Assembly (NCBI RefSeq): GCF_004210375.1
Contig: NC_134834.1
Location: 98,708,170-98,772,169 of the forward strand
DNA length: 64,000 nucleotides
DNA from: Tachypleus tridentatus
Lineage: Eukaryota > Arthropoda > Merostomata > Xiphosura > Limulidae
Direction: 5' to 3'
The position numbers were made by a program, and so were the translations under genes. The notes under the pieces were generated by a model. That model was not told the DNA's origin, did not search any database, and saw nothing but the letters and a program-made list of their open reading frames with translations. Of this stretch, positions 9,405 to 48,642 are shown piece by piece. Every line of letters starts with the position of its first letter. Position 1 is the stretch's first letter.

Positions 9405-9421
9405 CAGACTTGAACACCTGT

Positions 9422-9427: not shown

Positions 9428-9464
9428 CGAGTGTTTTCCCAAGTTATACATACTTCACATACTT

Positions 9465-25309
<15,845 letters not shown>

Positions 25310-26861: not shown

Positions 26862-27095
26862 TATATATGTAAAAATGGTTTGTTTGGGTCGAGAAAATTT
26901 TTTACCTTCAGTCATTGTCAGGTTCACAAAGAGGTAACTGACTGGAAGTTGACCACATGTTTGAAAGGGGTTATGCAACTGATTGTCAAAACTGTTCGCT
27001 CCTCTACATAAAAAAATTTTTCTCAACCCAAACAAGCCATTTTTTACGTATATATTTTTCTCTACAAGTGGGTTTTCTCATCACTGATTATTCAA
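26862..27095. mobile_element. Head-to-head Penelope flanking-repeat copy, RPS7 intron 1
   Basis: Inverted arms gtaaaaatggtttgtttggg and its near inverse, ctcaacccaaacaagccattttttac, flank a centre with a reversed partial flanking repeat (caggttcacaaagaggtaactgac). It ends aagtgggttttctcatcactgatta, as does the PLE at 30225. The hammerhead-like core is decayed here. Same family as 30587-30770. Confidence 0.6.
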
Positions 27096-28241
27096 CATTG
27101 TTATGGAACATAGTAACTCAAAGCTGAAACAAGTAAAAGCAGTAAATAGTTTTACAAATAAAATCAACTTTTGGAGATAATAGTAGTATGAGCTACAAGG
27201 GGTTCTGGAATCAGTCCTTTATGTTAGCAAGCTCTTTATTTTACACATCATGAATTCTTTGTGCTGATTGTGTTTCCTCTAGATCAATTCTTCTCAAGTT
27301 TAAACATTTAATGGCCTATACTTAAGTTACTGTTTTCTCAATACAGATCTACAAGAAACCTTGATAAATCTGGTTTTGTCAAGAGTTAGAATTTAAGGAG
27401 GGGAGGTCATAGTTTGCAACAGCTATAAAACTTTAATCATAAGTACAATCTTGTACAATCATTACCAGGAATTTCTAGATGTAGCTTGAAACATCAAACA
27501 TTTACCTTACACCTTATTTTTAGTCAAATATTAGTTCACAGGTACATGTCTATGTTCCAAACATTAATGTAAACAGAAGAGTTATTGGGGTCACAGGGTG
27601 AAATATTTAATCTTAAAATACAAAACCTAATTTAAAACACTAAGGTACACTTCGAATATCACTAATCAAATATTTCAACTGCATAAGCCCATGATCTGTA
27701 GCCATTTTTAATTTCATATTTGAAACCTCCAAAAATATACACGATATTTTTAAAACCTGTACCACAGTACATTTAAAAATCAGTAATTCATGTTCAACTT
27801 CAAGTTATGACTATTTACACATTTCTTAGTCTTGGATTAATATCGACTTTAACTTTTTAAAATAAAATTACGTCCTTATTAATTCTTCCAACTACTACAG
27901 TAGTTGCATTCTATTTCTCTAAAATACGAAAACACCAAGTAAAAAATAATAAAAACAGAATGAAAAACCATTACTTGATAAATTATAAACACCACTTTAT
28001 TTCAGATGAAAAGCCTAACCATAATGACTAATGCTGTAATAAAACATGATTAAAAACCGCTCAAACCTATGAGCCAAATCAATCCGAAATCATCTATTTT
28101 AAGAGATACAATACCTCTCTGTTACATTACCTGAAGAAAAATATAGATTTCAGAGAATATTTTTGTTTAATTTTAAAATTATTGGCAGAATTTACCACGA
28201 AAAACTGGAACTTTATCGACAAATACAATACATAACTTTAC

Positions 28242-28268
28242 CTTGCTTCGGGAGCTAAACGAAAGAGG
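28242..28268 (-). promoter_or_regulatory. RPS7: RPS7 non-coding exon 1 with 5' TOP/TCT start
   Basis: On the minus strand TTTTCCTCTTTCGTTTAGC leads to a perfect donor GCAAG|GTAAAG at 28241/28242. A pyrimidine tract (CCTCTTTC) at the start is the hallmark of 5' TOP mRNAs and of the TCT initiator of ribosomal protein promoters. It places the start at about 28267-28268 and links translation of this mRNA to growth (mTOR/LARP1) control. The exon would be only about 27 nt. It is supported by motif, donor and position only; transcript data would settle it. Confidence 0.65.
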
Positions 28269-28357
28269 AAAATTAATCTCCTACTCAGCCTTCATAAGTT
28301 TGATAAAACACACTAGAGGACGCTATATAATAAAAGTTCTTAATTTAAAATTTAGAA

Positions 28358-29341
28358 ATTCTAAAAGCAGATAAAGGTAACGCTATAGTCATAATGAACA
28401 CGAATGAATACATCCAAAAAATGAATAACATCCTATCAGACACGAACAAATTTAAACCAATACACACAAATCCAACAAAGACACACGAGACGCAACTGAA
28501 CAAATTACTACTACAAATGAAAAAAGCCAACACAATTTCACAAACACTTTATTCCTACCTACGTAAAACCGACTCACGCACACCACAAATATACGGCATC
28601 CCCAAACCTCATAAACCAGATTGTCCATTACGACCAATAATGTCCACATATGAATCGTTTAATTACAATCTTGGTAAATACATAGCATGGGCATTCTCCA
28701 AATATGTAACATCAGCCAGCTCATTCATCAAAGACTCTTTTAATTTCAAGTCTAATCTAAATCAACTTAATCATAAAGCCTTAATGGCCAGTTTCGATGT
28801 TATATCCCTCTTTACAGAAGTTCCAACCACTGAAGCCTGCAAGATAGCCTTAGAACTCTATATCCCAGACCCTAACCCAACTATAGAAATTCTCATTAAC
28901 CAATTAGCAACCCTCATAGAATTCACCACGATAAAGACAAACTTCATGTTCAACAACCAAAACTATATACAAACAAATGGCCTAAGCATGGGCAACCCAG
29001 TATCACCAGTTCTAGCCAATATTTTTATGACACAAGTTGAAACACAAGCAATTAACACAGCATTACATCCACCACTATACTGGTACAGATATGTAGATGA
29101 CACGGTTGCGGGATTCAAATCTACAGAACACATGATTTTTTCAATCACATTAACTCTATACATCCCAACATTAACTTCACATGTGAACAGGAAGAAAGCA
29201 ATCAAATATCATTTCTTAACCTCAAAATTACAAGAACTGACACACAATTCAAAACAGAAATCCACCGAAAAATCACCCATACTGGACTATACATTCCTTG
29301 GGACTCAGCACATGAAACAAAACAAAAACTCAACATACTAA
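28358..29341 (+). pseudogene. PLE reverse transcriptase part
   Basis: Open frame from 28358 to the stop at 29339-29341. Visible motifs: 'IYGIPKPHKP' (near 28590), 'PLRPIMS', motif A 'SFDVISLFTEVP' with its catalytic Asp (near 28792), motif B 'GLSMGNPVSPVLANIFM' (near 28978), motif C 'YVDD' (29092-29103). The catalytic Asp triad is intact. After 'YVDDTVAGF' the frame becomes nonsense at about 29136-29141, a run of six T, while PLE-like sequence continues in another frame. A one-base deletion in the T run explains this. The 5' end is truncated. Confidence 0.88.
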
Positions 29342-29940
29342 GAAACCAAATAAACACAGCCATAAAACTATGCTCACCAGATAAAATTAACGATGAATTA
29401 GACAAAATAAAACAATACTTCATCAACATCAATAAGTTTCCTCCACAAACCGTAAAAAACATTATACGCACACACCTAGACAGAAAGCAAAATCAACCAA
29501 CTAAAGTAAATACAGCTCACGAATCAAAAAATCACGAAACCATATACTGCTGTATACCATATATTCCTGACATCAGCAAACAAATAACCAACATTTGGCA
29601 AAAATTAGTAACAAAATATGACATTCCAGTTAATACCAAATTTATTCAAAAACCAGGCACAAAACTGAGGTCTATACTATGTAAAAACTACACTGACAAA
29701 CACCACACCAACATTATTTATAAAATACAATGTGATAACTGCCACGACTTCTATATTGGAGAAACAAGTAGAAAAATGGAAACCAGATTCAAAGAACATA
29801 AAAAGTCACCTTCACACGTTTTCGAACACTGCAACTCAAGTAAACCCAACATAACCATAGAAAACACTCAAATACTAAATAAAGAAACAAACGCAAAATT
29901 AAAAAAGCCTTACTTATACAACAACTTAAACCCAAAATAA
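29140..29940 (+). pseudogene. PLE C-terminal part with GIY-YIG endonuclease
   Basis: In the frame that follows the frameshift, coding continues without a stop to TAA at 29938-29940. It includes a conserved linker ('SFLNLKITRTDTQFKTEIHR', 'GLYIPWDSAHETKQKL') and the endonuclease block near 29716-29805: 'IIYKIQCDNCHDFYIGETSR' then 'ETRFKEH'. The YIG, the CxxC before it and the Arg/His region are present, while the usual GIY/GVY tripeptide reads IIY. GIY-YIG nucleases nick target DNA for PLE insertion. The frame being otherwise clean indicates a fairly young copy. Confidence 0.85.
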
Positions 29941-30096
29941 ACCAATATAAAGGAACGCCTTTATACCTATATTAATATAATAAAATAAATAAAATTATAT
30001 ATGCAAACATCTAATACCGCCCTCTACATTTCGACACACAGTTACACAACTCCTTTCACACATGTGGTCATCTTCCGGTCAGTTACCTCTTTCTTT

Positions 30097-30138
30097 GTGA
30101 ACCTGACGATGACCGAAGAAGGTCGAAACGTTGTTCGC
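30097..30138 (+). ncRNA. Hammerhead-ribozyme-like motif in the PLE repeat
   Basis: GTGAAC (stem I 5' side) - CTGACGA (core CUGANGA) - T - GACC gaagaa GGTC (stem II) - GAAA - CGTT - GTTCGC (stem I 3' side, complementary to GTGAAC with one G-U pair). ACGT after GAA is self-complementary, fitting the minimal stem III that would close only in a dimer. Minimal hammerheads in PLE flanking repeats that may act as dimers are established knowledge. The single T between core and stem II is a departure from the consensus and could weaken or abolish activity. Confidence 0.5.
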
Positions 30139-30225
30139 TCTTCTATGTAAAATATTTTCTCAACCCAAACGAGCCGTTTTTGCATATAAATTTCTCAACA
30201 AGTGGGTTTCTCGACATCACTGATT

Positions 30226-30586
30226 AATTTAAATACGTAAAATACATCACAGACCATGATAATATGTTTAACATCTTAATATTATTTTCAGTACAATGAT
30301 TATTTTACATGTTCTTACACAGAAAGAGCTTTTCATAATATAAGACACTGAATCAATAAGGTATACTCGTAAATTCCAGTTAGCCTCGATTAAACTGTAA
30401 ATGTACGAGTAATAAAAGTTAAACAAGTCTCTGACAAAAATTATAAATAGTATTTTGAATTATTAATACACATGCACAAAAGGTTTAATTGGTTTACATT
30501 TGAATGCTAATTTGGTTTGCTTAAAGTTTTGTAAAATTTCAATAATTATAATCAAGAAACTATACACTAAACAAAATGAGTTGATT
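30226..30586. other. Unassigned stretch between two PLE-derived copies
   Basis: AT-rich DNA, no feature recognised. Confidence 0.4.
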
Positions 30587-30770
30587 TATATACGCGAAAA
30601 CGGCTCGTTTGGGTTGAGAAAATATTTTACGTGAACCTGACGATGACCGAAGAAGGTCGAAACGTTGTTCGCTCTTCTATGTAAAATATTTTCTCAACCC
30701 AAACGAGTTGTTTTTGCATATATATTTCTCTACAAGCGGGTTTTCTCGACATCACTGAAAATGAGTTGAT
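30587..30770 (+). mobile_element. PLE-derived hairpin with hammerhead-like loop
   Basis: Two 44-bp inverted arms (30587-30630 and 30681-30724; about 39 positions complementary, containing gagaaaatattttac / gtaaaatattttctc) enclose a 50-nt loop. The loop is exactly the hammerhead-like motif (30631-30672) in the same sequence as in the complete PLE. The right arm continues with the PLE terminus (...gggttttctcgacatcactga). There is no coding part, so it is a solo or non-autonomous copy. Confidence 0.7.
30631..30672 (+). ncRNA. Second hammerhead-like motif
   Basis: Identical over all 42 positions to the motif at 30097-30138, including the extra T before stem II, although the surrounding repeats differ at several sites. 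Confidence 0.5.
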
Positions 30771-30893
30771 TAAAAACTGTTAAAAAACTTTTTTTTGCAT
30801 AAAGGCCAATTATCGTTTTACTTTATTTTGTTATTTGTATCAAATATTCATAAACTGGAAGCATCTGTAAAAGTTACCCGGTTAATACTGTTG

Positions 30894-31166
30894 TTGTTTT
30901 CTTAAATTCGCGCAAAGCTACACAAGAGCTATGTGCGCTAGCCGTCCATACTTTAGCAGTGTAAGACTAAAGGGAAGGCAGCTAGTCATCACCACCCACT
31001 GCCAACTCTTGGGCAACTCTTTTACCAACAAATAGTGGGATTGACCGTAACATTAGAACGCTTCCACGGCTGAAAGGGCAAGCATATTTGGTACAACTGG
31101 TATTCGAATCCGCGACTCTCAGATTATGAGTCGAACGCTTTAACCCACCTGGCCATGCTAGGCCTC
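30894..31166 (-). mobile_element. tRNA-derived SINE
   Basis: Reverse-oriented copy of the window's main SINE family: left end ttaaattcgcgcaaagctac, body with catcaccacccactgccaac and aatagtgggattgacc, and head ending attcgaatccgcgactctc and ggccatgctaggcc. Confidence 0.88.
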
Positions 31167-31194
31167 ATGGTTAGTAAGCAGTCAGTGCATACAA

Positions 31195-31352
31195 TTCTTG
31201 ATGACGAGAAACCCACTTGAAATAACGGCTGGATATGGGTATTAACACTTTTATTGATAAGCAGAAAACAGCATTTCGAAACAACGGTTTAGCGATACGT
31301 CTCTTGACTTATAACACTTCAAATCAGATTTCGATACCCGCGGTGGTTGCAA
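31195..31352 (-). mobile_element. Penelope-type repeat fragment plus second tRNA-like fragment
   Basis: cgagaaacccacttgaaata and tattaacacttttattgataagcag match the family at 1896-2055. It is followed by acttataacacttcaaatc and gatttcgatacccgcggtgg, which resembles the B box and 3' part of another tRNA-related SINE. Both are partial. Confidence 0.4.
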
Positions 31353-32165
31353 AATAAATAGACGATTTTGTAGTTTTTACTGAACAAAAGCCCAAACAAA
31401 GAATTCCAACTAATACTAAGGTTATTTGAATCGATTGGGATAGGACGAACACATTAGTATTTGTAACTTTATTCATATTAACGAACTAATGTTGTTGTTT
31501 TTGTTTGGCTTTTTATGGTACAAAGTAATTAGGTAACTGCGCCAAACAACCGTTAAAATATAAAATAACAGTAAAATTATTATAAGGTGTAAAAGGAAAT
31601 TAAGTTGAAACAAAAACAGTGACCCAACATCGGGGAAAACTTAAATAGAATTAAAAGGCCAACTACCCTTAAACAATTAAAAACACTTGTAAGGTGGACG
31701 GTGTGATATTCGCCAATGACACTGTCCAACGTCAGGGGTGATCTAATGGTAAAAACATGCCGAAAACTGTGCCATCGCTCACGGTTGTAACGACAGTAAA
31801 ATGTGGTCTATTGTGAATACCGACGTGGCCTAGTATCCAGAAGAACTAGATAGAAGTAGATGATAAAGAAAAATGAGCCAGTCGACTTAACTTAACCGAC
31901 TCGCTTAACTCTCTAGTGGTTCTCGCTTAATGTTAGTTCTCACCCTGTTTTCGTCGATATAAATATTACAGTTTGTGTACTGCATAGCGTTTGCGTAACT
32001 CAGGACAAAAACAGTAGAGGAGATCCTCTGTGCAACCATAGAGTCAACTGATTTCGAACTTCCGTATAAATTGGAATAAAATAATAGTTCGAGAAATATT
32101 CAGCATATAGAAGACGGCCCTTCCAATCGGGAGCATCCGCTTTTTTTAGATGACTCAAAGAAAGG
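31353..32165. other. Stretch downstream of the LINE fragment
   Basis: The part nearest 32165 could be the 3' end of the LINE read from 32166, but I see no recognisable domain. The rest is unassigned. Confidence 0.3.
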
Positions 32166-32950
32166 TCAAACTTGAGGATGGTAATAAACCATGGTGGAAT
32201 GGGCTAACCAGTGGAGACAGACAGCAACGGCATCTGAAAACAGAGCCAATTGAGTCAATTGCGCCTGAATACGAAGGCCAAAAGGAACAATGACAGAGCA
32301 TTTATTCTGAAAAACATGGCCCACTGGGGAAGGAAAACACAACCCCAGTTTCGAAACATACAGTAAATACAGTTCCAAACAGCTGAGGTGTAGATGAGGT
32401 TCATGAGACTCTGTGTAAAAGCTCTGAACTGGAGATGTGTGGAAAGCCCCCGTGCAGAGCCAAAGCCCTAGAGGGCGAATAGGATTTAACAAATTCAAGG
32501 CCAAGGTCCTGACAGGACCATAGACTAGATTTGATTGAATGAAGATATGATAGATTTTTAGCATAGAATATCGATCCACTCCCCAAGAGGTGGAAGAGAT
32601 GATACAAAGGATGTTCAGTGCCCTTATACACTTGACACATAGCTGCTTGATGTGTGAAATAAAAGTCAACTTACGATCAAATATAAGCTCCCAAAAGTTT
32701 GCCTCGGAGACCACAGGAAACATAACTTCACAAAGCCGGAGCTCGGGTTCTGGGGAAATATTCTGTTGGTAGCAAAAGTGCATGCAAACGGTTTTAGAGA
32801 GAGATAAAGTAAAACCGGCTGCTGTGGTCCACTTCAGTAAACGATTGAGGGCAGTTTGTAGCTGGCGCTCAATAAACCTCATGCTTGACGACTGACCCGA
32901 GATGTAGAAGTCGTCGACATAGAGTCAGTTTGCTACTGTAGGGAGAATAT
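32166..32950 (-). pseudogene. Jockey-like LINE reverse transcriptase, C-terminal fragment
   Basis: On the minus strand an open frame begins before 'LYVDDFYISGQSSS' (motif C YVDD at about 32914-32925) and runs through the thumb and C-terminal region: 'RLLKWTTAAGFTLSLSKT', 'IFDRKLTFISHIKQL', then 'GAFHTSPVQSFYTESHEP', all typical of Jockey-clade ORF2 in arthropods. The segment around 'NFWELIFDRKL' has diverged from the usual 'KFLGLIFDRKL'. Everything N-terminal to motif C is absent (a stop lies just upstream), so it is a fragment. It is the same broad family as the LINE at 5760-8810. Confidence 0.8.
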
Positions 32951-33644
32951 CGAACTAATTGAACAGCAGTTGTTTTGATGTACGATAGACTAAGGTGATG
33001 AGTTGTAGTTTTTATCAATTTTTTAAGGCTTACATCTCCATGTAATTTTGCATTAAAAACGAAAACATATCCTAAATTAAGCCATTAATTACCGTGACTA
33101 ATCTATATTGATTTAGAATATCTATTAAACAGTTAAAAAATAAGGTCAAATAAGTAACTGAACATTGTTTCCTCACAGAGGCGTTATTTTATATACGGGA
33201 ATTATGGCAAATATCCTCCCAGCCTTTGAAGATTGTTATAAAAAGAAATACAATTTTTTAAACACCATGATTTACTGTTCTAACCCTTAAATGAAGTTGC
33301 TTAATATGTGATGTTATCCTGCAATGTCAGAGTTGGATTTATATCACTTTTTATTACCACATTGTGATAGATATCTTATTTTGAATTTGATGATGAGGTA
33401 CCTACTTTGAGATAATAAAGTATGAAGACGGCTTGAGTGCATAATAAGAAACAATTTATTACAAGATTAACATAGTAACAAATATACATCGTTTTGACAG
33501 GGTTTTTGTTAATACCAGGTACAAGTAGTTTACACAGACACAGTATGGAACAATAAGGCCACACGACCAGAGATTGCTTAACAAATTAATGAAGATACCT
33601 TCGTACCCTGGAGCGTTGTTTTACAGTAGGGCTGTATCTACAAT
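32951..33644. other. Unassigned AT-rich stretch
   Basis: No coding or repeat feature recognised. Confidence 0.4.
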
Positions 33645-33880
33645 ATTAAAATAACTTCTTTTATTTTACGTTTGTTGATGTTAAATCCTTATTTAAAATT
33701 ACAGCGTTTGTAATATATATACTACAGTTTTTCGGATTACAATAATGGTAAACATGGGAGGTTTTTTTATTACATTCGGTGAATCCGGTTTCCAGTTTTC
33801 TCCGATTTGGTATTCTGGACAGTTATTACACGTTATTTTATAAATGACGTAGATATTGTATGATTATATGTAATACTTTT
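33645..33880. repeat. Dispersed repeat, copy 2
   Basis: Counterpart of 20615-20850: ggattacaataatggtaaac, atgggaggtttttttattac, attcggtgaatccggtttcc in the same order and orientation. Confidence 0.6.
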
Positions 33881-34090
33881 TGGAATTACTTTAATACGGT
33901 TTTGTTTTTTTGTTTTTTTTACTGGTGAAAAAGACTTACAACATGGTAGCATCCAAATACACATTGAAAATGTTAAATTGAAAATATTACACATGGAAAT
34001 CTCACGAATGTGAATTTCAAAATGGATTTTTGGAAAATATTTTATCTTTATAGCATTTATAGCAAAATAAACTCGACACAGTGTAAGAGT

Positions 34091-34326
34091 TTATTCTTCT
34101 TTAAAGAATAATCTCTGAGATAATGATTCAAAATTTCTATGGTTGTGACCAAGGCAATGCACGATGTTAAACATATAGTTCTGGAGTTTCTGAAGCCATC
34201 TTGCTATCTCACTTTCTTGATTATAAAATTTATTAACCACTTCAGTGCTCACGAGTTCTCTGGAGTGTAAGCTTTTGTCCATCTATGTAATGATAGAAAT
34301 AAGTTTTGGTCATAACTAAATTTAGT
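34091..34326 (-). pseudogene. Ty3/Gypsy pol remnant: end of RNase H domain
   Basis: On the minus strand, after the 71-bp array, pieces in shifting frames read 'FYHYIDGQKLTL', then 'NQESEIARWLQKLQNYMF' and 'NIVHCLGHNHRNFESLSQR'. These correspond to the conserved end of Gypsy RNase H and the 'ARWLxxLQxYxFxIxHRxGxxHxNADxLSRR' connection. This part directly continues the ORF cut by the array. No integrase was found downstream. Disrupted by stops and frameshifts. Confidence 0.8.
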
Positions 34327-37300
34327 AGCAATATCCGGTTGTGCAATACCTCCTTTCTGTAACATTCAATGCCTTGCTCTAGTAGGCTATCAGAACTAGC
34401 AATATCCGGTTGTGCAATACCTCCTTTCTGTAACATTCAATGCCTTGCTCTAGTAGGCTATCAGAACTAGCAATATCCGGTTGTGCAATACCTCCTTTCT
34501 GTAGCATTCAATGCCTTGCTCTAGTAGGCTATCAGAACTAGCAATATCCGGTTGTGCAATACCTCCTTTCTGTAGCATTCAATGCCTTGCTCTAGTAGGC
34601 TATCAGAACTAGCAATATCCGGTTGTGCAATACCTCCTTTCTGTAGCATTCAATGCCTTGCTCTAGTTGGCTATCAGAACTAGCAATATCCGGTTGTGCA
34701 ATACCTCCTTTCTGTAGCATTCAATGCCTTGCTCTAGTAGGCTATCAGAACCAGCAATATCCGGTTGTGCAATACCTCCTTTCTGTAGCATTCAATGCCT
34801 TGCTCTAGTTGGCTATCAGAACTAGCAATATCCGGTTGTGCAATACCTCCTTTCTGTAGCAATCAATGCCTTGCTCTAGTTGGCTATCAGAACTAGCAAT
34901 ATCCGGTTGTGCAATACCTCCTTTCTGTAGCAATCAATGCCTTGCTCTAGTAGGCTATCAGAACTAGCAATATCCGGTTGTGCAATACCTCCTTTCTGTA
35001 GCATTCAATGCCTTGCTCTAGTTGGCTATCAGAACTAGCAATATCCGGTTGTGCAATACCTCCTCTCTGTAGCATTCAATGCCTTGCTCTAGTAGGCTAT
35101 CAGAACTAGCAATATCCGGTTGTGCAATACCTCCTTTCTGTAGCAATCAATGCCTTGCTCTAGTTGGCTATCAGAACTAGCAATATCCGGTTGTGCAATA
35201 CCTCCTTTCTGTAGCATTCAATGCCTTGCTCTAGTAGGCTATCAGAACTAGCAATATCCGGTTGTGCAATACCTCCTTTCTGTAGCATTCAATGCCTTGC
35301 TCTAGTTGGCTATCAGAACTAGCAATATCCGGTTGTGCAATACCTCCTTTCTGTAGCATTCAATGCCTTGCTCTAGTAGGCTATCAGAACTAGCAATATC
35401 CGGTTGTGCAATACCTCCTTTCTGTAGCATTCAATGCCTTGCTCTAGTTGGCTATCAGAACTAGCAATATCCGGTTGTGCAATACCTCCTCTCTGTAGCA
35501 TTCAATGCCTTGCTCTAGTAGGCTATCAGAACTAGCAATATCCGGTTGTGCAATACCTCCTTTCTGTAGCATTCAATGCCTTGCTCTAGTAGGCTATCAG
35601 AACTAGCAATATCCGGTTGTGCAATACCTCCTTTCTGTAGCATTCAATGCCTTGCTCTAGTTGGCTATCAGAACTAGCAATATCCGGTTGTGCAATACCT
35701 CCTCTCTGTAGCATTCAATGCCTTGCTCTAGTAGGCTATCAGAACTAGCAATATCCGGTTGTGCAATACCTCCTTTCTGTAGCATTCAATGCCTTGCTCT
35801 AGTAGGCTATCAGAACTAGCAATATCCGGTTGTGCAATACCTCCTTTCTGTAGCATTCAATGCCTTGCTCTAGTAGGCTATCAGAACTAGCAATATCCGG
35901 TTGTGCAATACCTCCTTTCTGTAACATTCAATGCCTTGCTCTAGTAGGCTATCAGAACTAGCAATATCCGGTTGTGCAATACCTCCTTTCTGTAACATTC
36001 AATGCCTTGCTCTAGTAGGCTATCAGAACTAGCAATATCCGGTTGTGCAATACCTCCTTTCTGTAGCATTCAATGCCTTGCTCTAGTAGGCTATCAGAAC
36101 TAGCAATATCCGGTTGTGCAATACCTCCTTTCTGTAGCATTCAATGCCTTGCTCTAGTAGGCTATCAGAACTAGCAATATCCGGTTGTGCAATACCTCCT
36201 TTCTGTAGCATTCAATGCCTTGCTCTAGTAGGCTATCAGAACTAGCAATATCCGGTTGTGCAATACCTCCTTTCTGTAGCATTCAATGCCTTGCTCTAGT
36301 AGGCTATCAGAACTAGCAATATCCGGTTGTGCAATACCTCCTTTCTGTAGCATTCAATGCCTTGCTCTAGTAGGCTATCAGAACTAGCAATATCCGGTTG
36401 TGCAATACCTCCTTTCTGTAGCATTCAATGCCTTGCTCTAGTAGGCTATCAGAACTAGCAATATCCGGTTGTGCAATACCTCCTTTCTGTAGCATTCAAT
36501 GCCTTGCTCTAGTAGGCTATCAGAACTAGCAATATCCGGTTGTGCAATACCTCCTTTCTGTAGCATTCAATGCCTTGCTCTAGTAGGCTATCAGAACTAG
36601 CAATATCCGGTTGTGCAATACCTCCTTTCTGTAGCATTCAATGCCTTGCTCTAGTAGGCTATCAGAACTAGCAATATCCGGTTGTGCAATACCTCCTTTC
36701 TGTAGCATTCAATGCCTTGCTCTAGTTGGCTATCAGAACTAGCAATATCCGGTTGTGCAATACCTCCTTTCTGTAGCATTCAATGCCTTGCTCTAGTAGG
36801 CTATCAGAACTAGCAATATCCGGTTGTGCAATACCTCCTTTCTGTAGCATTCAATGCCTTGCTCTAGTAGGCTATCAGAACTAGCAATATCCGGTTGTGC
36901 AATACCTCCTTTCTGTAGCATTCAATGCCTTGCTCTAGTAGGCTATCAGAACTAGCAATATCCGGTTGTGCAATACCTCCTTTCTGTAGCATTCAATGCC
37001 TTGCTCTAGTTGGCTATCAGAACTAGCAATATCCGGTTGTGCAATACCTCCTTTCTGTAGCATTCAATGCCTTGCTCTAGTTGGCTATCAGAACTAGCAA
37101 TATCCGGTTGTGCAATACCTCCTTTCTGTAGCATTCAATGCCTTGCTCTAGTAGGCTATCAGAACTAGCAATATCCGGTTGTGCAATACCTCCTTAGCAT
37201 CTGCTCTAGTAGGCATTCAATGCCTTGCTCTAGTAGGCTATCAGAACTAGCAATATCCGGTTGTGCAATACCTCCTTTCTGTAGCATTCAATGCCTTGCT

Positions 37301-40300
37301 CTAGTAGGCTATCAGAACTAGCAATATCCGGTTGTGCAATACCTCCTTTCTGTAGCATTCAATGCCTTGCTCTAGTAGGCTATCAGAACTAGCAATATCC
37401 GGTTGTGCAATACCTCCTTTCTGTAGCATTCAATGCCTTGCTCTAGTAGGCTATCAGAACTAGCAATATCCGGTTGTGCAATACCTCCTTTCTGTAGCAT
37501 TCAATGCCTTGCTCTAGTAGGCTATCAGAACTAGCAATATCCGGTTGTGCAATACCTCCTTTCTGTAGCATTCAATGCCTTGCTCTAGTAGGCTATCAGA
37601 ACTAGCAATATCCGGTTGTGCAATACCTCCTTTCTGTAGCATTCAATGCCTTGCTCTAGTAGGCTATCAGAACTAGCAATATCCGGTTGTGCAATACCTC
37701 CTTTCTGTAGCATTCAATGCCTTGCTCTAGTAGGCTATCAGAACTAGCAATATCCGGTTGTGCAATACCTCCTCTCTGTAGCATTCAATGCCTTGCTCTA
37801 GTAGGCTATCAGAACTAGCAATATCCGGTTGTGCAATACCTCCTTTCTGTAGCATTCAATGCCTTGCTCTAGTAGGCTATCAGAACTAGCAATATCCGGT
37901 TGTGCAATACCTCCTTTCTGTAACATTCAATGCCTTGCTCTAGTAGGCTATCAGAACTAGCAATATCCGGTTGTGCAATACCTCCTCTCTGTAACATTCA
38001 ATGCCTTGCTCTAGTAGGCTATCAGAACTAGCAATATCCGGTTGTGCAATACCTCCTTTCTGTAACATTCAATGCCTTGCTCTAGTAGGCTATCAGAACT
38101 AGCAATATCCGGTTGTGCAATACCTCCTCTCTGTAACATTCAATGCCTTGCTCTAGTAGGCTATCAGAACTAGCAATATCCGGTTGTGCAATACCTCCTT
38201 TCTGTAACATTCAATGCCTTGCTCTAGTTGGCTATCAGAACTAGCAATATCCGGTTGTGCAATACCTCCTCTCTGTAACATTCAATGCCTTGCTCTAGTA
38301 GGCTATCAGAACTAGCAATATCCGGTTGTGCAATACCTCCTTTCTGTAACATTCAATGCCTTGCTCTAGTAGGCTATCAGAACTAGCAATATCCGGTTGT
38401 GCAATACCTCCTTTCTGTAACATTCAATGCCTTGCTCTAGTAGGCTATCAGAACTAGCAATATCCGGTTGTGCAATACCTCCTTTCTGTAACATTCAATG
38501 CCTTGCTCTAGTTGGCTATCAGAACTAGCAATATCCGGTTGTGCAATACCTCCTTTCTGTAACATTCAATGCCTTGCTCTAGTAGGCTATCAGAACTAGC
38601 AATATCCGGTTGTGCAATACCTCCTTTCTGTAGCATTCAATGCCTTGCTCTAGTAGGCTATCAGAACTAGCAATATCCGGTTGTGCAATACCTCCTCTCT
38701 GTAGCATTCAATGCCTTGCTCTAGTAGGCTATCAGAACTAGCAATATCCGGTTGTGCAATACCTCCTTTCTGTAGCATTCAATGCCTTGCTCTAGTAGGC
38801 TATCAGAACTAGCAATATCCGGTTGTGCAATACCTCCTTTCTGTAGCATTCAATGCCTTGCTCTAGTAGGCTATCAGAACTAGCAATATCCGGTTGTGCA
38901 ATACCTCCTCTCTGTAGCATTCAATGCCTTGCTCTAGTTGGCTATCAGAACTAGCAATATCCGGTTGTGCAATACCTCCTCTCTGTAGCATTCAATGCCT
39001 TGCTCTAGTAGGCTATCAGAACTAGCAATATCCGGTTGTGCAATACCTCCTTTCTGTAGCATTCAATGCCTTGCTCTAGTAGGCTATCAGAACTAGCAAT
39101 ATCCGGTTGTGCAATACCTCCTTTCTGTAGCATTCAATGCCTTGCTCTAGTAGGCTATCAGAACTAGCAATATCCGGTTGTGCAATACCTCCTTTCTGTA
39201 ACATTCAATGCCTTGCTCTAGTAGGCTATCAGAACTAGCAATATCCGGTTGTGCAATACCTCCTCTCTGTAGCATTCAATGCCTTGCTCTAGTTGGCTAT
39301 CAGAACTAGCAATATCCGGTTATGCAATACCTCCTCTCTGTAGCATTCAATGCCTTGCTCTAGTTGGCTATCAGAACTAGCAATATCCGGTTGTGCAATA
39401 CCTCCTTTCTGTAGCATTCAATGCCTTGCTCTAGTTGGCTATCAGAACTAGCAATATCCGGTTGTGCAATACCTCCTTTCTGTAGCATTCAATGCCTTGC
39501 TCTAGTAGGCTATCAGAACTAGCAATATCCGGTTGTGCAATACCTCCTTTCTGTAACATTCAATGCCTTGCTCTAGTAGGCTATCAGAACTAGCAATATC
39601 CGGTTGTGCAATACCTCCTTTCTGTAGCATTCAATGCCTTGCTCTAGTTGGCTATCAGAACTAGCAATATCCGGTTGTGCAATACCTCCTCTCTGTAGCA
39701 TTCAATGCCTTGCTCTAGTTGGCTATCAGAACTAGCAATATCCGGTTGTGCAATACCTCCTCTCTGTAGCATTCAATGCCTTGCTCTAGTTGGCTATCAG
39801 AACTAGCAATATCCGGTTGTGCAATACCTCCTCTCTGTAGCATTCAATGCCTTGCTCTAGTTGGCTATCAGAACTAGCAATATCCGGTTGTGCAATACCT
39901 CCTTTCTGTAGCATTCAATGCCTTGCTCTAGTTGGCTATCAGAACTAGCAATATCCGGTTGTGCAATACCTCCTTTCTGTAACATTCAATGCCTTGCTCT
40001 AGTAGGCTATCAGAACTAGCAATATCCGGTTGTGCAATACCTCCTTTCTGTAACATTCAATGCCTTGCTCTAGTAGGCTATCAGAACTAGCAATATCCGG
40101 TTGTGCAATACCTCCTTTCTGTAGCATTCAATGCCTTGCTCTAGTAGGCTATCAGAACTAGCAATATCCGGTTGTGCAATACCTCCTTTCTGTATCATTC
40201 AATGCCTTGCTCTAGTAGGCTATCAGAACTAGCAATATCCGGTTGTGCAATACCTCCTTTCTGTATCATTCAATGCCTTGCTCTAGTAGGCTATCAGAAC

Positions 40301-42004
40301 TAGCAATATCCGGTTGTGCAATACCTCCTTTCTGTATCATTCAATGCCTTGCTCTAGTAGGCTATCAGAACTAGCAATATCCGGTTGTGCAATACCTCCT
40401 TTCTGTAGCATTCAATGCCTTGCTCTAGTAGGCTATCAGAACTAGCAATATTTGGTTGTGCAATACCTCCTTTCTGTATCATTCAATGCCTTGCTCTAGT
40501 AGGCTATCAGAACTAGCAATATCCGGTTGTGCAATACCTCCTTTCTGTATCATTCAATGCCTTGCTCTAGTAGGCTATCAGAACTAGCAATATCCGGTTG
40601 TGCAATACCTCCTTCTGTAGCATTCAATGCCTTGCTCTAGTAGGCTATCAGAACTAGCAATATCCGGTTGTGCAATACCTCCTTTCTGTAGCATTCAATG
40701 CCTTGCTCTAGTAGGCTATCAGAACTAGCAATATCCGGTTGTGCAATACCTCCTTTCTGTAACATTCAATGCCTTGCTCTAGTAGGCTATCAGAACTAGC
40801 AATATCCGGTTGTGCAATACCTCCTTTCTGTAACATTCAATGCCTTGCTCTAGTAGGCTATCAGAACTAGCAATATCCGGTTGTGCAATACCTCCTTTCT
40901 GTAGCATTCAATGCCTTGCTCTAGTAGGCTATCAGAACTAGCAATATCCGGTTGTGCAATACCTCCTCTCTGTAACATTCAATGCCTTGCTCTAGTAGGC
41001 TATCAGAACTAGCAATATCCGGTTGTGCAATACCTCCTCTCTGTAACATTCAATGCCTTGCTCTAGTAGGCTATCAGAACTAGCAATATCCGGTTGTGCA
41101 ATACCTCCTTTCTGTAACATTCAATGCCTTGCTCTAGTAGGCTATCAGAACTAGCAATATCCGGTTGTGCAATACCTCCTTTCTGTAGCATTCAATGCCT
41201 TGCTCTAGTAGGCTATCAGAACTAGCAATATCCGGTTGTGCAATACCTCCTCTCTGTAACATTCAATGCCTTGCTCTAGTAGGCTATCAGAACTAGCAAT
41301 ATCCGGTTGTGCAATACCTCCTCTCTGTAACATTCAATGCCTTGCTCTAGTAGGCTATCAGAACTAGCAATATCCGGTTGTGCAATACCTCCTCTCTGTA
41401 ACATTCAATGCCTTGCTCTAGTAGGCTATCAGAACTAGCAATATCCGGTTGTGCAATACCTCCTCTCTGTAACATTCAATGCCTTGCTCTAGTTGGCTAT
41501 CAGAACTAGCAATATCCGGTTGTGCAATACCTCCTTTCTGTAACATTCAATGCCTTGCTCTAGTAGGCTATCAGAACTAGCAATATCCGGTTGTGCAATA
41601 CCTCCTCTCTGTAACATTCAATGCCTTGCTCTAGTAGGCTATCAGAACTAGCAATATCCGGTTGTGCAATACCTCCTTTCTGTAACATTCAATGCCTTGC
41701 TCTAGTTGGCTATCAGAACTAGCAATATCCGGTTGTGCAATACCTCCTTTCTGTAACATTCAATGCCTTGCTCTAGTAGGCTATCAGAACTAGCAATATC
41801 CGGTTGTGCAATACCTCCTTTCTGTAACATTCAATGCCTTGCTCTAGTTGGCTATCAGAACTAGCAATATCCGGTTGTGCAATACCTCCTTTCTGTAGCA
41901 TTCAATGCCTTGCTCTAGTTGGCTATCAGAACTAGCAATATCCGGTTGTGCAATACCTCCTTTCTGTAACATTCAATGCCTTGCTCTAGTAGGCTATCAG
42001 AACT
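34327..42004. repeat. 71-bp satellite, about 108 copies, derived from Gypsy RNase H coding sequence
   Basis: 7678 bp of head-to-tail 71-bp units (plus strand: agcaatatccggttgtgcaa, tacctcctttctgtagcatt, caatgccttgctctagtagg, ctatcagaact). On the minus strand the unit reads 'VLIAY*SKALN', then a variable residue, then 'TERRYCTT', a Gypsy RNase H block; the flanking pol pieces continue it on both sides. Variant sites: gta(g/a/t)cattc, gtagcaatc, agt(a/t)ggc, c(t/c)tctctg. Variants cluster: gtatcattc only at about 40190-40550, gtagcaatc only at about 34855-35145. One scrambled unit lies near 37190-37215 and a 70-bp unit near 40612. This clustering is what unequal crossing-over produces. Confidence 0.97.
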
Positions 42005-43560
42005 TCATTTCCATACTATACTTATGCGAACACTTCTCCCTCTGAAAAATCCCTGGCAGCTGTACCTAAAATGAGTTGGCATTCAAACAGTTCGTAAAGC
42101 AATTATTTTATGATTTTACTGAGTTCATGTTCCCAGAACGTATTTGTGTTTTCAATTAATATGTGTCGAAAGTGAACTATGCCAGAGAATTGATTTACGA
42201 TGATAATAAGAATACAGTCCAAAGTTCCTTGATGTTGGCTAATTCTTGAGTAAATCTGGGCAGATTCAGTCTTAAATGGATCCTTAAACCCTTCACTTCT
42301 GTTGATTATGTGTCCCAAGAAATTCACTTGTTGATGAAATAGTTCTTAAGATTTTGCTTAAGGTTCTCTTTCTTTGATCAATCTAGAACTTTTTCAGCCC
42401 ATAATGAGTATTATCAAGAATCTTCCCATATGTAATCATGTAAGTTAATATGACGAGTATGACACTTTAGAGAAAGCACACATGTAGCAGGTGCATTACA
42501 TAATAGAAATATGGCAACATAAAGTTAATACAAACAGTTTTGTAATAGAGCTTATTTTCACTCTGCTTGCTTCATTACCTTCTACGTGCCAATATCCATT
42601 CTTAAAATTCATTGCTGAGTGTCCTTTTGATCCAGGTAAAGCATCGAAAGTAGAGTAGATCCTTTGCAGTGGGTGTAAATCCTTTTCTGAGATTCCATTC
42701 ATATTCTGGTAGCTCATAAAGACCCTTGTTGATCCATCCTTATTTTGTATAGGTTCTGAAGATAAGGCCCAAGGGATAATATTCAATTTTGCCACTTTGT
42801 TTTTATACGACTTTGAAAGTTTCAGCATGTTTTTCAAGTGAGAATCGTTTGGCTGAATAACAGATTGGAGCTACGCTTCCACTATCGATGTAGTGAGATA
42901 TTTTATTTATTTGGTCTAAGTCATGAGGGTTCCTGGAGGAGGTATATAAATATTCCATGAGCTGTAAAACTTTTTCATCTCTTGTGAGGTAGTAAGCTTT
43001 CCTTATTTTAGTATCTGACCTGATACTTCTGACATTTTGTTTCAAATTATTTGAATTTTATAGTTTGTTGCGTTTATATCTCTAATAATAATATATTTAT
43101 TCTTCAGATTCGCAAAAGTTCTTCAAACCATTGATCTTCCAGGAATTCTGGAATATTTGACTCTACTACATTCCAGTCACGAAATAAAACTTATTCTCAG
43201 TACGTCTTGATATAATTACATTTCTTGGTGGCACAGTGACTGCTCTCTTTGTTGTTACTGGAAGTTCAACTTCTAACGTAGTAACTGTCACGCAGTTCAT
43301 TGAGATTTCCTGACCATATACCATGAAACTATTTGAAGTTACCCTGACTTGACAATTGCGTATTTGCATGAAGCTGCTTTCTAATATGCACACATTCTTT
43401 CTTGAAGTCAATTACGCATCCTTCATGATGTATAAGAAAGTTTCCTATAATAAAAGTGACATTCAAATTTCTCTTACTACACATTTATGTACACTTGCTG
43501 TTCGTATCTTCTTTTTTCTATCAGCGAACAATTTACTTTTCATCAGCAAATTGATTTGAA
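42005..43560 (-). pseudogene. Ty3/Gypsy pol remnant: protease end, reverse transcriptase, start of RNase H
   Basis: Read on the minus strand, in order: protease C-terminal piece ('IIGNFLIHHEGCVIDFKK' near 43385-43450); linker; start of reverse transcriptase ('HYIDSGSVAPICYSAKRFSL' near 42840-42900); RT block with 'KDGSTRVFMSYQNMNGISEK' and 'LDAL/FDALPGSK...MNFKNGYWHVE' near 42580-42740; 'VNFLGHIINRSEGFKDP' near 42275-42330; and RNase H start ('LILGTAARDFSEGEVFA', 'YGNEVLIAY') near 42000-42075. RT motif C was not recognised. Stops and frameshifts occur throughout, so it is an old non-functional copy. LTRs and gag were not identified with confidence. Confidence 0.82.
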
Positions 43561-44049
43561 CTATAGCAGTTAAAAAACTAGTGTTTTCAACACATCAGAA
43601 AACTTGTCCTCAATAAACCCTGGGACTATTTTCGTTTAGTAATGATCTTATTTCATTTGAGGTAAATGGAGTATTCTCAGTTGAACTTTGCTCTGTCAGT
43701 CACTTATTTACTGTTTTCCGGTGTTCTTCTTGAGGTGTTAGGAGCTGTTGATTCACTACAGTTTCAGCTATAATGGCTATGCTTTCCACATTTATAAAAA
43801 TTACATTTTCCTCAGATCATTCTTGTTACAAATAGGTTTTCTCTACAATTTTTTTCCGATATATCTTTTCAAGTTACATTAAAAACAGCTTGTGACTTAT
43901 TTCCTCCATTCTTTGCAAAGTTCTTAAACTTAATCCTTTAAGGTTTTCTAGACCATCTTAAGGGGGAGTTGATGTTTCGGAACCACTTAATTTTTATGAT
44001 CTCCTAACTTAAAGATGATTCCTTTACTTGTCTAACTGTCACTTTAATG
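43561..44049. other. Unassigned stretch upstream of the Gypsy remnant
   Basis: It could include decayed gag/protease-linker sequence on the minus strand, but no motif is convincing. Confidence 0.3.
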
Positions 44050-44270
44050 GGTTCAAGCTCCATCCTCGTCGCGCCAAACATGCTCGCCCTTTCAGCCGTG
44101 TGGGCGTTATTATGTTATGGTCAATCCCACCAATCGTTGGTAAAAAAGTAGCCCAACAGTTGGCGGTGATGAGTAGCTGCCTCCCCTCTAGTTTTACAGT
44201 GCTACATTAGGGACGGCTAGCACAGATAGCCCTCGAGTAGCTTTGTGTAAAATTCAAAAACAACACAAAA
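44050..44270 (+). mobile_element. tRNA-derived SINE, 5'-truncated
   Basis: Lacks most of the tRNA head. Starts about gggttcaagctccatcctcg, continues with cgccaaacatgctcgccctt, ggtcaatcccacc, acagttggcggtgatgag, ggacggctagcacagatagc and a gtaaaattcaaaaacaacac tail. Confidence 0.85.
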
Positions 44271-46793
44271 CAAGCATCATCCTCAATACTAAAGTTCCCT
44301 TTAACGATGTAAAATTACTTTGCTTCAGTCTAATTTACATATTATAGCTTGTTATTGTATCTATAAATTGGTTACGTGCCAATGAATCCATTATTGTACG
44401 TGGAGTATACGAGTAAAACAATTAGGCAAATCGTTCAAAATCTTCTGCAAGTTCAGCTAAGGTCTCTTCATTCCTCTGTATTTTGTTCCGAAACTTTACT
44501 TTTGGATATTTCCTTCTATTCATAAGGTTTATCACTACAATTGTATTTCATACATTATAAACCTTCATAGTTAATAAAGTGTATATATTTTAGTATTGAA
44601 TAATCTTTTCAAACTCTTGAAGATAGATTTTAAGGTGATTGGTCCAGTAGTTGCTCAGTGATCCTGGACTGCACCTCAAATGACGTTATAGTTACTTGTA
44701 TGTATAATTCCTCATTCTGTTTAGTCTGTCTTTACGAAAATCTATTTGACCGGATGATATTTGTTGCTACTTCATGGATACTTTCACATCCATGAATAAA
44801 GTTCACTGTGAAAACCTTATGGATTCTGTTTATATGTATATATACCCTTTAAAGGGGACAATAGTTAGAATCACTTTACGTGAGACTCCTCTCACTGACA
44901 CGCAGACAATGTTTGATGCACATGGGAGTTGTTCTTGGCAGGTGCGTTCGATGTTTGTTTTTCATTTGCATTTCACACCTATTATTTTGCAACACGTCCT
45001 CAAGATTATAATTTAGCCATAACGAAAACTTAGCCAAACATTTCTCTAGTATTTTACAACAGGACCATTAATCTGTTGTTAACCCATGTGAAAGTTCAGT
45101 TTGTTTATTTTAGACACTTCACTGGTAAGCAACTTGCCAATATTCTTTATGTCCTCTTCACCATCCTTATTTAGAAACTCGTGTAACCTTTTTGAAAATG
45201 TTCGATGTTATTCTTTGTGTTCACCACTTTTGTCAAAGATAAACCTTAATTTATATTTTTTACACCTTACTTTTGGAGGTTATTGATATGTCATCATGAT
45301 CACATATACCACTGTTACACTGGCAACATTCTGAACATTTTGCGACAGTGACGTTGCAGGTCGACTTTGAAACTAATGCTTTTGACATTTTTATCGAATT
45401 TAGAATAATTGACATAAGTTGTTGAAAACAAGTCAATGTATTCTCAGTGAAATAACATTTAAACAACTGATGACTAAAAACCAATTTTCAGCAAAAAAAA
45501 ATCGCTTTCACTAATTCTATGAAATTCACTTATTTTTTGTCTAAAAAAAGGAAGAAAACTCATGCTCTACATACGAAACATTTCTTTCGGTTGTGATATT
45601 TTATATCTGAATGCAAAAAGTTCATAAAATGTAAAGGCAATGCTGTGTATACAGACTAATTAAAACGGGTAAGTGACCTCCCTAGACTACCACTATTAAA
45701 CCTAATAAGAACCACTATTATTTCACTAAGGAGCTGTAGTTAAACTGGTATGGAAGCTATACTCAACATATAAACCTGAAATAGTTACTTGATCCAAGAT
45801 TCACAATAATAACCCTCCCATGCTTAATTATATTACTCACACTCATGTGATGTCAAACTTCTCCATTCACAATTGTGTGAATTGTCCAGAGTGACAGTAG
45901 AAATGATAGTGACTGATATACCCTAAAACCAATTAGTTCCCTAGCTTGTATTTAGATACTTGCACGGGTAGACACCAAACCATGCTTTGTCCTATAATTG
46001 TACTAACCACTATGCTTAAAGGAACACACAAACGATATTTTCTCGTAGACCAGCAGTTACATATTATTTAAGAACACTGGTTTGTTTTAACTAATGAATC
46101 TGACAGCATTCACAGATTGTCATCATTGTTTCTTTTCTTGTGCAGATAGCACGTGCATCTTCTTTACTATTTTCATGGTTCTAAACCAATAACCATCTGT
46201 AAAATTATTCAGCAGGCTTCAAATGTCTTTACTGGTCAGATGACCAAATTGAACAAATTCATCATGCAACATTTAACAAACTCTTGCTTTGTAACTACTA
46301 ATAATTGTAATTTCTGTAGTACCAGTATGGTGTTTCATGGGTTCACCAGGAAGCCCTTCCAAAAAAGTATACATGACCGTATCTTCTCGGTTCTCCGACA
46401 TTATGGTGATTTTCTTTAAGCGTAAATATTGCATCTATTTGGCACACCTAGCCATGTTATCATTGGTATCATGTTTATCAGCTTTGCATTCTACTGCAAA
46501 GATGATTTTGTTTCTTACTACGTTAAAGTTATGACAATTCTCAACTCCACTACCACGTCTTCTCTAATGCAAATTTAATCAGGTTCCAAATGTTTCATGT
46601 CGTCAAGTGAAAGACATCCATACTAAGCAGCAAATTCTGCTTTGTTTGGTCCTGGGTCTAAGGAAGTGATATAGAATTTTCTTTATTTCTTTTTGAATTT
46701 TGCATAAGGCTAACTGAGGGTTATCTCTTCTAGATCTCTCTAATTTAGAAATGACAAACTAGATGGAAAGGAGCTAGACAACACCAGCTCTTA
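44271..46793. other. Unassigned AT-rich stretch
   Basis: Only short open frames without recognised homology. On the minus strand 46230-46540 has a slightly protein-like run ('DTVMYTFLEGLPGEPMKHH'), possibly from a retroelement gag, but this is not supported by a known motif. Confidence 0.3.
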
Positions 46794-46935
46794 GGCTATT
46801 TTTACCAACAAGAAGTGGGATTTACCATCACGTAATACCACCCCAACAGTTAAAAGAACAAGCATATTATGATGGGATTCGAACTCGCAACTCTCAGATT
46901 GTGAGTCAAGTACCATAGTGATCAGGTTATGCAAA
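46794..46935 (-). mobile_element. tRNA-derived SINE, head fragment
   Basis: ttaccaacaagaagtgggat, then aacaagcatattatgatggg, attcgaactcgcaactctcag and attgtgagtcaag: the tRNA head and first part of the body only. Confidence 0.7.
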
Positions 46936-47224
46936 ATTCGCTTCCCAACTGAACCTGTAAAACATTGAAATGTATTTCTTCCTTTCACTAGTTCCTGTTG
47001 ATTATAATAACGACAACAATCAATTAGTGGTGTCACTTGACATGAAAGACGGTGTGCCAATATAGACATCAACTCCATCTGTGTAGTGGCTGAATTTCTA
47101 CATCATGCTGAGTGTTAAATTTGTTCCCATTCTCACTTGAGAAACATCACAGAATAAAAATAACGTAATGTTGCTCTTCCTTCTCAAGTTACTGTACAAA
47201 GAGGTTGTGTCATCCTTCTATTTG

Positions 47225-47372
47225 TGAAAGGCTATTACGGCACTAGCAGTTCATAATTTAGAAAGAAGAGGGAAAGCAGCTAGTTATCACCATCAACGCT
47301 TGGGTGACTCTTACCAACAAATAGTGGAATTGACTGCGACATTATAACACCGTACAGCTAAAAAGGGCGAGA
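47225..47372 (-). mobile_element. tRNA-derived SINE, body fragment
   Basis: gagggaaagcagctagttat, caccatcaacgcttgggtga and accaacaaatagtggaattg match the SINE body. Both ends are lost. Confidence 0.65.
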
Positions 47373-48269
47373 TTTGTTTTTTACATTACAACTATTTTAT
47401 TAAATATCAGCCTTGACTAGAATACTCTATGTCAAAAATAATGAAGTATTGAGTGATTCCACTCGCATATTTTGTTTGATACACAGGTGGACACATTGTA
47501 GCAGAGGATGAAATTTCTTAATAAAAAAATAGTAAAACAATTACGCATTGTATATGAAGACTGGAGACAAGAATAATCCTTCCAACATTTCTTTGTTGTA
47601 CAAGTAGTGTAAAAATCTATAAACTTCATTATTTCTCAAAGTTAAAACGAACTTAAGTTAAACAATAAGAATTATTTAAATTTAGAAAAATGGTAAAGTT
47701 TATGCTTTTACACACATTACAAACTTGGATTCCGAGTAGATATCTCATAAAAAATACACGCAGTTGTAAAATAGTCTGTTAACACACAGCCGTGGACAGC
47801 ACAGCAGTTACCTGTCAACACACAGTAGTGAACAGTAGAGCCATCATCAGTTCGACATACAGCTACACATATTACACTTAATGGTTGAATGTTATCATAT
47901 ATAATAAAAGATATTTTAACCAGATTCGGACAGAGATAAAGGGTTTCTAATTTGATGAATTAAAAATTATAATTGACTAATTACGATTTCACGTACCAAA
48001 TAAGGACTTGAAACGTAACTTTATGGTATCGGTATGCACAAGTCATGTAAAAAGATGCATCAAATCTAATCACACAGTATACAATTACCAATACTTAGTT
48101 CAATCAATGTAAAGCATTATATCAAGTCTAGATTACAAAGTTAATCCATAAAACAGTATCACCAACTTGGATAATTATAATTTAAAGTCACTTAAAGCAG
48201 TCTGATAGTGTTAAATAACAAGCATGGTTCCACTAAGGAATAAGTTTAACATATCTTCTGACATTCTTT
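47373..48269. other. Unassigned stretch
   Basis: AT-rich, no feature recognised. Confidence 0.4.
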
Positions 48270-48642
48270 GAATATATTACTGCAATAGTTGATGAAAGAA
48301 ATACTGTGGATTTAGTTTACCTTTGTTTTAAAAAAAGATTTGACAAAGTGTCTCACAAAAAATAAATGTGTGAGTGTGTGTGAGAAATATTATTAAATTG
48401 GATAGAAAATTTGCTGGAGAGTAAAAAGGCCACAGTAATAATAAACTTAAATCATCTAGACAGTGTATTAAGCTTGTTATAGGACTCGTATGATTTGGGG
48501 CAGCATTTACAGAAACACTGAACAGAAGACAAGGGACATTATTGTTTCACTGTACAGCTCATTGGTAAGGCCTCATCTAGTGTACAGTTTTGGGTTTCCT
48601 TCCTCAAGAAGGACATTAAATTGTCAGAGGAAGTACAGAGAA
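48270..48642 (+). pseudogene. CR1-like LINE reverse transcriptase, 5' piece
   Basis: 'VDERNTVDLVYLCFKKRFDK' then 'VSHKK' (48288-48363) is the motif A region of CR1-type RT, with Cys at the place of the catalytic Asp (usual YLDFxKAFD) and a stop after it. 'WIENLLES' follows, then an internal deletion, then 'LYSSLVRPHLVYSFGF' (near 48551-48598) and, after a frameshift, 'KKDIKLSEEVQRKDTQ' (near 48607-48654), the CR1 segment close to the C-terminus. The 33-bp array starts inside that last block. Confidence 0.75.

Follow-up and report, generated by a model that had tools for sequence, protein, structure and literature searches.

A 71-bp tandem array within a decayed Gypsy RNase H sequence of Tachypleus tridentatus, present in two lengths in one genome assembly

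Tandem arrays derived from transposable elements

In the human genome, 7,276 transposon-derived minisatellites account for 23% of the minisatellites and satellites examined, and the starting mechanisms postulated for them explain only 6% of the cases (Ahmed and Liang, 2012; PMC3389668). The arrays of this human set began at or after the insertion of individual transposon copies and grew by local duplication, and the array from Tachypleus tridentatus described here resembles them in both respects, its unit being likewise homologous to a transposon. It differs from them in having arisen from the sequence coding for RNase H in a Gypsy element, and in that its locus is available for comparison in two versions, one of 108 units and the other of 61.

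Closer in the type of element are the satellites from Ogre Ty3/gypsy elements of Lathyrus sativus (Vondrak et al., 2019; PMC7004042) and PisTR-A of pea (reviewed in PMC9659126), which are likewise Gypsy-derived tandem arrays, traced to the interior of the element through the order of the protein domains on either side. In the Ogre elements, however, short tandem subrepeats pre-exist downstream of gag-pol and expand later (PMC7004042), whereas the relatives of our array that were examined contain the stretch only once, the array derives from pol coding sequence of an apparently dead copy, and no spread was found; tandem subrepeats were absent from the 18 slices of this part of the element that we took from other copies of the family. 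Retroelement coding sequence is the source of the unit also in HinfI from chicken (CR1 ORF2), PROsat from Phodopus (LINE-1 ORF2) and E3900 from rye (gag), although these satellites stem from other parts of their elements (PMC9659126). The legend to Figure 2 of the same review includes POL among the possible source regions; in its table of transposon-derived satellites, those from Gypsy elements come from LTRs, UTRs, subrepeats or gag, and there is no row for RNase H (PMC9659126). Within the open-licence literature that we searched, we found no case of a satellite from a Gypsy RNase H. The phenomenon is already known in kind, and the locus is unusual in how well it displays the founder sequence, its flanks, unexpanded relatives and two length versions.

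A 71-bp array within a Gypsy RNase H sequence

The window, which here means the whole stretch of 64,000 nt that was analyzed, corresponds to C10:98708170-98772169 (C10 is NC_134834.1) in a genome of 2.17 Gb in 205 contigs. Its features around the array, in window coordinates, are the following:

34097..34325, minus strand: downstream flank, the remaining RNase H, decayed and frameshifted (tblastn, E 0.006; DNA match to the relative L015, E 1.6e-29; alignment)
34326..42003, minus strand: 71-bp array of 108 head-to-tail units (Tandem Repeats Finder, TRF, and splitting at the unit boundary)
37166..37247, minus strand: single variant unit of 82 bp, rearranged internally through what looks by eye like reuse of its own sequence (unit splitting)
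42004..42330, minus strand: upstream flank, the first part of RNase H (by eye, with the end of RT) from the same Gypsy fragment, decayed (tblastn, blastn to L015, alignment)
42496..42870, minus strand: open frame resembling, by eye only, a decayed Gypsy RT palm (reading frame)

TRF gave a single array for this span, with a period of 71, 108.0 copies and 98% matches (34326-42004); its end at 42004 is the array end at 42003 plus the one base common to unit and flank. Apart from one unit of 82 bp (at 37166) and one of 70 bp (at 40585), the units measured 71 bp (106 of 108), and in the window's version these 71-bp units showed a mean pairwise identity of 98.1%, with recurrent variants at unit positions 30, 37, 40 and 59. 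Read on the minus strand, which is the sense of the element, each unit consists of VLIAY-stop-SKALN..TERRYCTT, or a near variant, followed by a tail in another frame, and the TAG stop is present in all 108 units; a unit length of 71 bp, not being divisible by three, rules out an in-frame coding repeat for the array. Like units were clustered at lags 1-5 in the window's version, and a higher-order repeat, sought up to lag 40, did not emerge (z < 2 at every lag from 6 to 40, reaching 1.98 at lag 22). All eight two-state combinations of three variant sites were seen, one of them in a single unit, as expected from exchange inside the array. At the end of the array, flank and unit share a single base, so the first duplication would have had almost no homology to use.

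For the identity of unit and flanks, we used as protein reference a Gypsy RT/RNase H piece from contig L001, recorded as a Nitrospinota MAG and which we take for eukaryotic contamination, and compared it by tblastn with the window. Across the upstream junction, positions 185-229 of the reference aligned without gaps to window 42078-41944 (44% identity, E 3.4e-4), and across the downstream junction positions 211-310 aligned to window 34393-34097 (E 0.006), with gaps through the frameshift. Positions 3-50 of Pfam RT_RNaseH also cross the upstream junction, in a match (E 0.0025) that falls under Pfam's cut-off, and the downstream pieces, one of them queried with one wrong residue, had no Pfam match; Pfam DUF7583 (E 0.033) and RPN11_C (E 0.12), returned for two pieces, are weak and unrelated. 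The RT-like frame at 42496..42870 had neither a Pfam RT match nor tblastn support from the N-terminal RT piece of L001, whose one match in the window (E 0.33) is irrelevant, and the integrase-side piece of L001 (one frame, 483 residues, one stop) matched nothing in the window. Outside the window, a translated-piece search of viral contigs gave 17 pattern matches, none of them a relative; a degenerate DNA pattern gave none in viral contigs and one in genome contigs, which was L001; and solved structures gave none in one search and an irrelevant one (E 1.6) in another. Judged from these alignments, the host fragment appears to be the RT-RNase H region of an element of the Gypsy/Ty3 (Metaviridae) type, the RNase H being established by comparison and the RT part read by eye. 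The original prediction had read the minus strand of the unit as Gypsy RNase H and the two flanks as the preceding and following parts of the same pol in the right order; for the RNase H, both readings are borne out by the tblastn matches across the junctions and, for the flanks, also by the DNA alignments presented below.

A 401-base query from the array retrieved 53 matches in the genome, 47 of them in two array blocks on C10, namely that of the window and a second one on the opposite strand at 99402281-99406612, and the remaining six being short single-copy matches on C13, C3, C10 (near 50.97 Mb), C7 (two) and C6. None of the 8 candidates scored was a 71-mer array at a site with unrelated flanks; among them, the 71-mer occurred as an array at one locus, in two assembly versions, and not at many loci as in a dispersed satellite. 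In a second genome query with the copy from C6 (L015), we scored 40 of 130 candidates, which corresponded to 38 other places (that of L015 included) and the two array loci. L015 aligned to window 34108-34392 (query 30-316, 72%, E 1.6e-29) and to window 41945-42022 (query 8-84, 79%, E 8.5e-9), and the two alignments overlap over one unit. Since it aligns at both junctions, this single-copy element is collinear through the upstream flank, the unit and the downstream flank, placing the array inside one transposon copy and collinear with both of its flanks. The alignment continued uninterrupted through the entire unit-equivalent stretch and for 26 bases or more past it in 21 of the 38 places (query locus included), while 11 began inside the unit-equivalent stretch and 6 beyond it.

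Eighteen distinct copies were compared, comprising 12 fetched from the L015 search (aligned with L015) and the six from the array query, and TRF detected no array in the 18 slices fetched around this part of the element. A blastn search with the unit against 13 slices gave one match each in 10 and no match in three; the extra HSPs of three relatives were chance matches of 9-12 bp. The existence of single-copy, collinear relatives supports an expansion in place, to 108 units by our count (about 108 in the original prediction), and the expected alignment of the unit to other Gypsy copies was obtained with the six plus 12 genomic copies; nor was the array found to lie mainly elsewhere with unrelated flanks among the 8 candidates scored. 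By eye, the unit appears in the alignments as a continuous piece of the element that lacks one base close to its end, and the aligner placed the tail differently in the two rows from the window.

Mean identity of the relatives among themselves was 67% over the unit, 66% downstream and 63% upstream, and that of the window's copy to the relatives was 67% over the unit, 63% over the downstream flank and 58% over the upstream flank. To judge by these values, the Gypsy family seems old (relatives on average 63-67% alike), as opposed to the 98% identity among units of the array. The identities show no clear effect of a better preservation of the unit than of the flanks, which would suggest a frozen older state.

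The TAG codon occurs in the 169 units of the two versions (108/108 and 61/61), and the stop in every unit indicates, most simply, that the founder segment was already dead and contained the stop before amplification. Homogenisation after expansion could also have spread the TAG. In either case, the amplified sequence encodes no working RNase H. We rejected the idea that the stop is private to the array locus, because one of the 18 relatives, L013, also has a TAG codon at that place; therefore, the stop need not have arisen at the array locus. By eye, L049 has another stop at the TAG codon and L011 has a stop one codon earlier. Together, the unexpanded relatives and the stop in 169 of 169 units indicate, indirectly, that the expansion started at or after the insertion of this copy, and not in its mobile parent. 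Since the unit can be recognised as coding sequence, its relatives fix the direction of change, from one copy to many, which is seldom possible in anonymous DNA; this direction rests on other copies, on average 58-67% identical, and not on a single-copy state of this same copy.

Two assembly versions of the locus and their neighboring arrays

The locus is assembled twice on C10, in inverted orientation and 622 kb apart, and two further features of the window, to which no strand applies, delimit the duplicated sequence:

1..57674: part of the 128-kb contig C10:98637526-98765843, present again in inverted orientation at C10:99388577-99499353 (sequence comparison)
57675..58174: 500-N assembly gap, at whose first base the homology to the second version ends (sequence comparison)

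The comparison covered 124 kb surrounding the window and 140 kb surrounding the second place. The inverted match ends at window position 57674, the last base before the 500-N gap. On the other side, the match was recovered at C10:98650001 and 98643001. Of two queries taken further out, one of 250 bases from C10:98600001 found no place but its own, and one from C10:98625001, which consists of repeat sequence skipped by the search, did not find even its own place. Another 500-N gap occupies 98637026-98637525, and the base that follows it aligns to 99499353. From gap to gap, the window's version forms a contig of 128,318 bases, and its counterpart in the second version measures 110.8 kb and has no N bases at 99340001-99480000 and 99494001-99498000. 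The correspondence of the two versions is based on both contig ends, 88 kb compared in full and sampled points between them. Outside of the arrays, their identity is 98.98% in 41,189 aligned bases, with indels disregarded. Ribosomal protein S7e is encoded as a rule by one gene in animals, and matches to it were found in this genome only at these two places. Because a contig bounded by gaps matches the other version at both of its ends, the two versions are probably unmerged haplotypes of one diploid animal.

Both versions are composed of the left flank, a whole number of units (108 vs. 61) and the right flank, in the same phase, and the flanks of the 61-unit array are the same as those of the window's array. 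Nevertheless, the two arrays share no unit order: the longest common run of unit types was 4, and none of at least 4 included three or more types, whereas 141 of 300 shuffles do have such a shared run. Position 30 is a C in 22 of 106 units of the window's version vs. 44 of 61 in the second version, and unit identity, at 98.1% inside the window's version and 98.0% inside the second one, is 97.5% when units of different versions are compared. This pattern fits a frequent short-range gain and loss of units, and allows for a comparison of rates, with a unit order lacking any match while the surroundings differ by around 1%. With two probable haplotypes as a basis, the array can be regarded as a length-variable, local minisatellite rather than a spread satellite. 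The term satellite birth, used in the original prediction, is thus appropriate for the birth in place but not for the product, which is a local array of variable length (108 vs. 61 units).

Arrays detected by TRF (at least 3 copies and a score of at least 150) occupy 33% of the compared sequence around the window (124 kb) and 19% of that around the second place (140 kb), and their pairing between versions, by position and unit sequence from the TRF tables, yielded 15 loci. Copy number differs between versions at 14 of these 15 arrays (e.g., 19.1 vs. 6.0 for a 57-bp unit, 83.9 vs. 23.9 for 33 bp, 140.9 vs. 34.6 for 51 bp and 24.7 vs. 75.7 for 39 bp), one of them differing only marginally (34.7 vs. 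32.5 for 43-44 bp), and is equal at a 45-bp array (5.4 in both). Small two-copy repeats of 35, 34 and 39 bp have equal or nearly equal copy numbers in the two versions. Additionally, within the 88 kb of paired sequence there are four sites that are single-copy in one version and have from 2 to around 30 copies in the other: a 96-bp site (4 vs. 1 units; 9 bp common at the join), a 48-bp site (2 vs. 1; around 6 bp common at the join), a 33-bp site (1 vs. 2; no shared base seen at the join) and an 89-bp site (1, followed by a 48-bp partial repeat that is 77% similar, vs. 30.3). A fifth one-vs-many site, of 97 bp, is less clean. The 96-, 48-, and 33-bp sites display the first steps of array formation, with the caveat that at one-vs-many sites the one-unit state could be a contraction, the direction being given by the relatives in the case of the 71-mer. 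As the neighboring arrays behave alike, array formation seems to be a tendency of the whole region, to which the Gypsy origin of the 71-bp array would be incidental.

Origin of the array

According to the mechanism that we propose, an old and inactive Gypsy (Ty3-type) fragment would have been present at the locus with its RNase H segment in one copy, and a 71-bp stretch of it would have been duplicated head to tail, with around 1 bp common to both sides of the join. The array would then have gained and lost whole units, by unequal exchange, slippage or break repair inside it, a turnover that would also have kept the units alike. The locus would have been assembled twice, most likely once from each haplotype of a single diploid animal, with 108 units in one and 61 in the other. 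Taken as a whole, this sequence of events, that is, expansion in place in a dead Gypsy fragment and subsequent turnover of whole units in two probable haplotypes, is very probably the correct explanation. We observe the flank-unit-flank collinearity with single-copy relatives, the whole unit numbers, the universal stop, the lack of a shared unit order and the short-range clustering of like units. The array presumably has no function.

It is highly improbable that the array was made elsewhere, e.g., in a mobile Gypsy copy or in circular DNA, and delivered to the locus by transposition or insertion. Whole unit numbers would also result if rolling-circle amplification were followed by homologous re-entry at the same site, and the TAG codon is carried by one relative, L013, as well. 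However, the 71-mer array was found only at the locus and its second version (8 candidates scored), the 18 other slices of the family have no array, and the unit supplies the stretch lacking between the flanks, as an unrelated insertion would not. We likewise give hardly any credence to the array length being an assembly artefact. Long, near-identical arrays are often misassembled, and the lengths reported here are those of the assembly, but the unit variants follow an irregular order and the two separately placed versions both contain the array, with different variant frequencies.

A further alternative concerns the haplotypes alone, and not the expansion in place: the two versions could be true inverted segmental duplicates, 622 kb apart, whose arrays changed afterwards. 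The placement of both on one chromosome-size sequence, in opposite orientation, agrees with such duplicates, which we nevertheless consider unlikely given that the window's version is a 128,318-base contig between 500-N gaps and has the terminal base at each end matched in the other version, that S7e matches were found only at these two places, and that the non-array identity of 99.0% fits allelic difference. We therefore maintain expansion in place, with two probable haplotypes, as the best explanation for the locus.

The beginnings of minisatellites and satellites are poorly resolved, and here the founder sequence, its flanks, its relatives and two array lengths are found together in one genome, in a locus that shows how tandem repeats start and change. 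It is quite possible, although we propose it tentatively, that in this animal array starts are so frequent that one diploid carries both unexpanded and expanded versions of the same sites, with the Gypsy array being one older product of a genome-wide process. If this were true, the poorly understood starting step of array formation would be directly readable.

Arrays differing in length between the two versions of the locus

The locus has an inverted near-copy 622 kb away on the same contig (C10), here called the second version. Two larger arrays and three small sites differ in copy number between them (window's version vs second version):

738-1824: 57-bp array, 19.1 identical copies vs 6.0
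48643-51413: 33-bp array, 83.9 copies vs 23.9
19511-19903: 96-bp unit, 4 copies vs 1, 9 bp shared at the join
23650-23751: 48-bp unit, 2 copies vs 1, about 6 bp shared at the join
26738-26770 (C10:99413763-99413828 in the second version): 33-bp unit, 1 copy vs 2, 0 bp shared at the join

The 96-, 48- and 33-bp sites are candidate nascent arrays. An 89-bp unit is single-copy in the window, where a 48-bp partial repeat (77% similar) accompanies it (11670-11809), whereas the second version holds 30.3 copies (C10:99426922-99429624); this site is a case of either array birth or array collapse, seen against a background of 99% identity between the versions in non-array sequence.

Coding matches and neighbouring elements

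Two open frames match ribosomal protein S7e and are probably exons:

10276-10440, minus strand
11082-11264, minus strand

A third match (19331-19471) fell below the cut-off and is interrupted by TAG in frame three times; should it nevertheless be an S7e exon, the arrays at 14.4-17.1 kb would be intronic. In the genome, we found S7e matches only in the window and at their counterparts in the second version.

The reverse transcriptase ORF at 28349-29940 (plus strand; Pfam RVT_1, E 1.7e-12) appears, by eye, to be a Penelope-like element. Adjoining the decayed Gypsy pol fragment that hosts the 71-bp array, 33646-33846 is 75.6% similar to 20614-20802.

Contig edge and status of the second version

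Among the matches listed, a satellite with a unit of about 55 bp (by eye) forms long near-identical arrays on two chromosomes (C10:98623751-98637025 and, on another contig, C19:65559236-65596637), and its C10 array extends to the gap bounding the window's contig.

C10:98637526-98765843 is probably an unmerged haplotype contig remaining in the assembly, inverted and 622 kb from its partner, C10:99388577-99499353. Such a contig would swell both gene and repeat counts.
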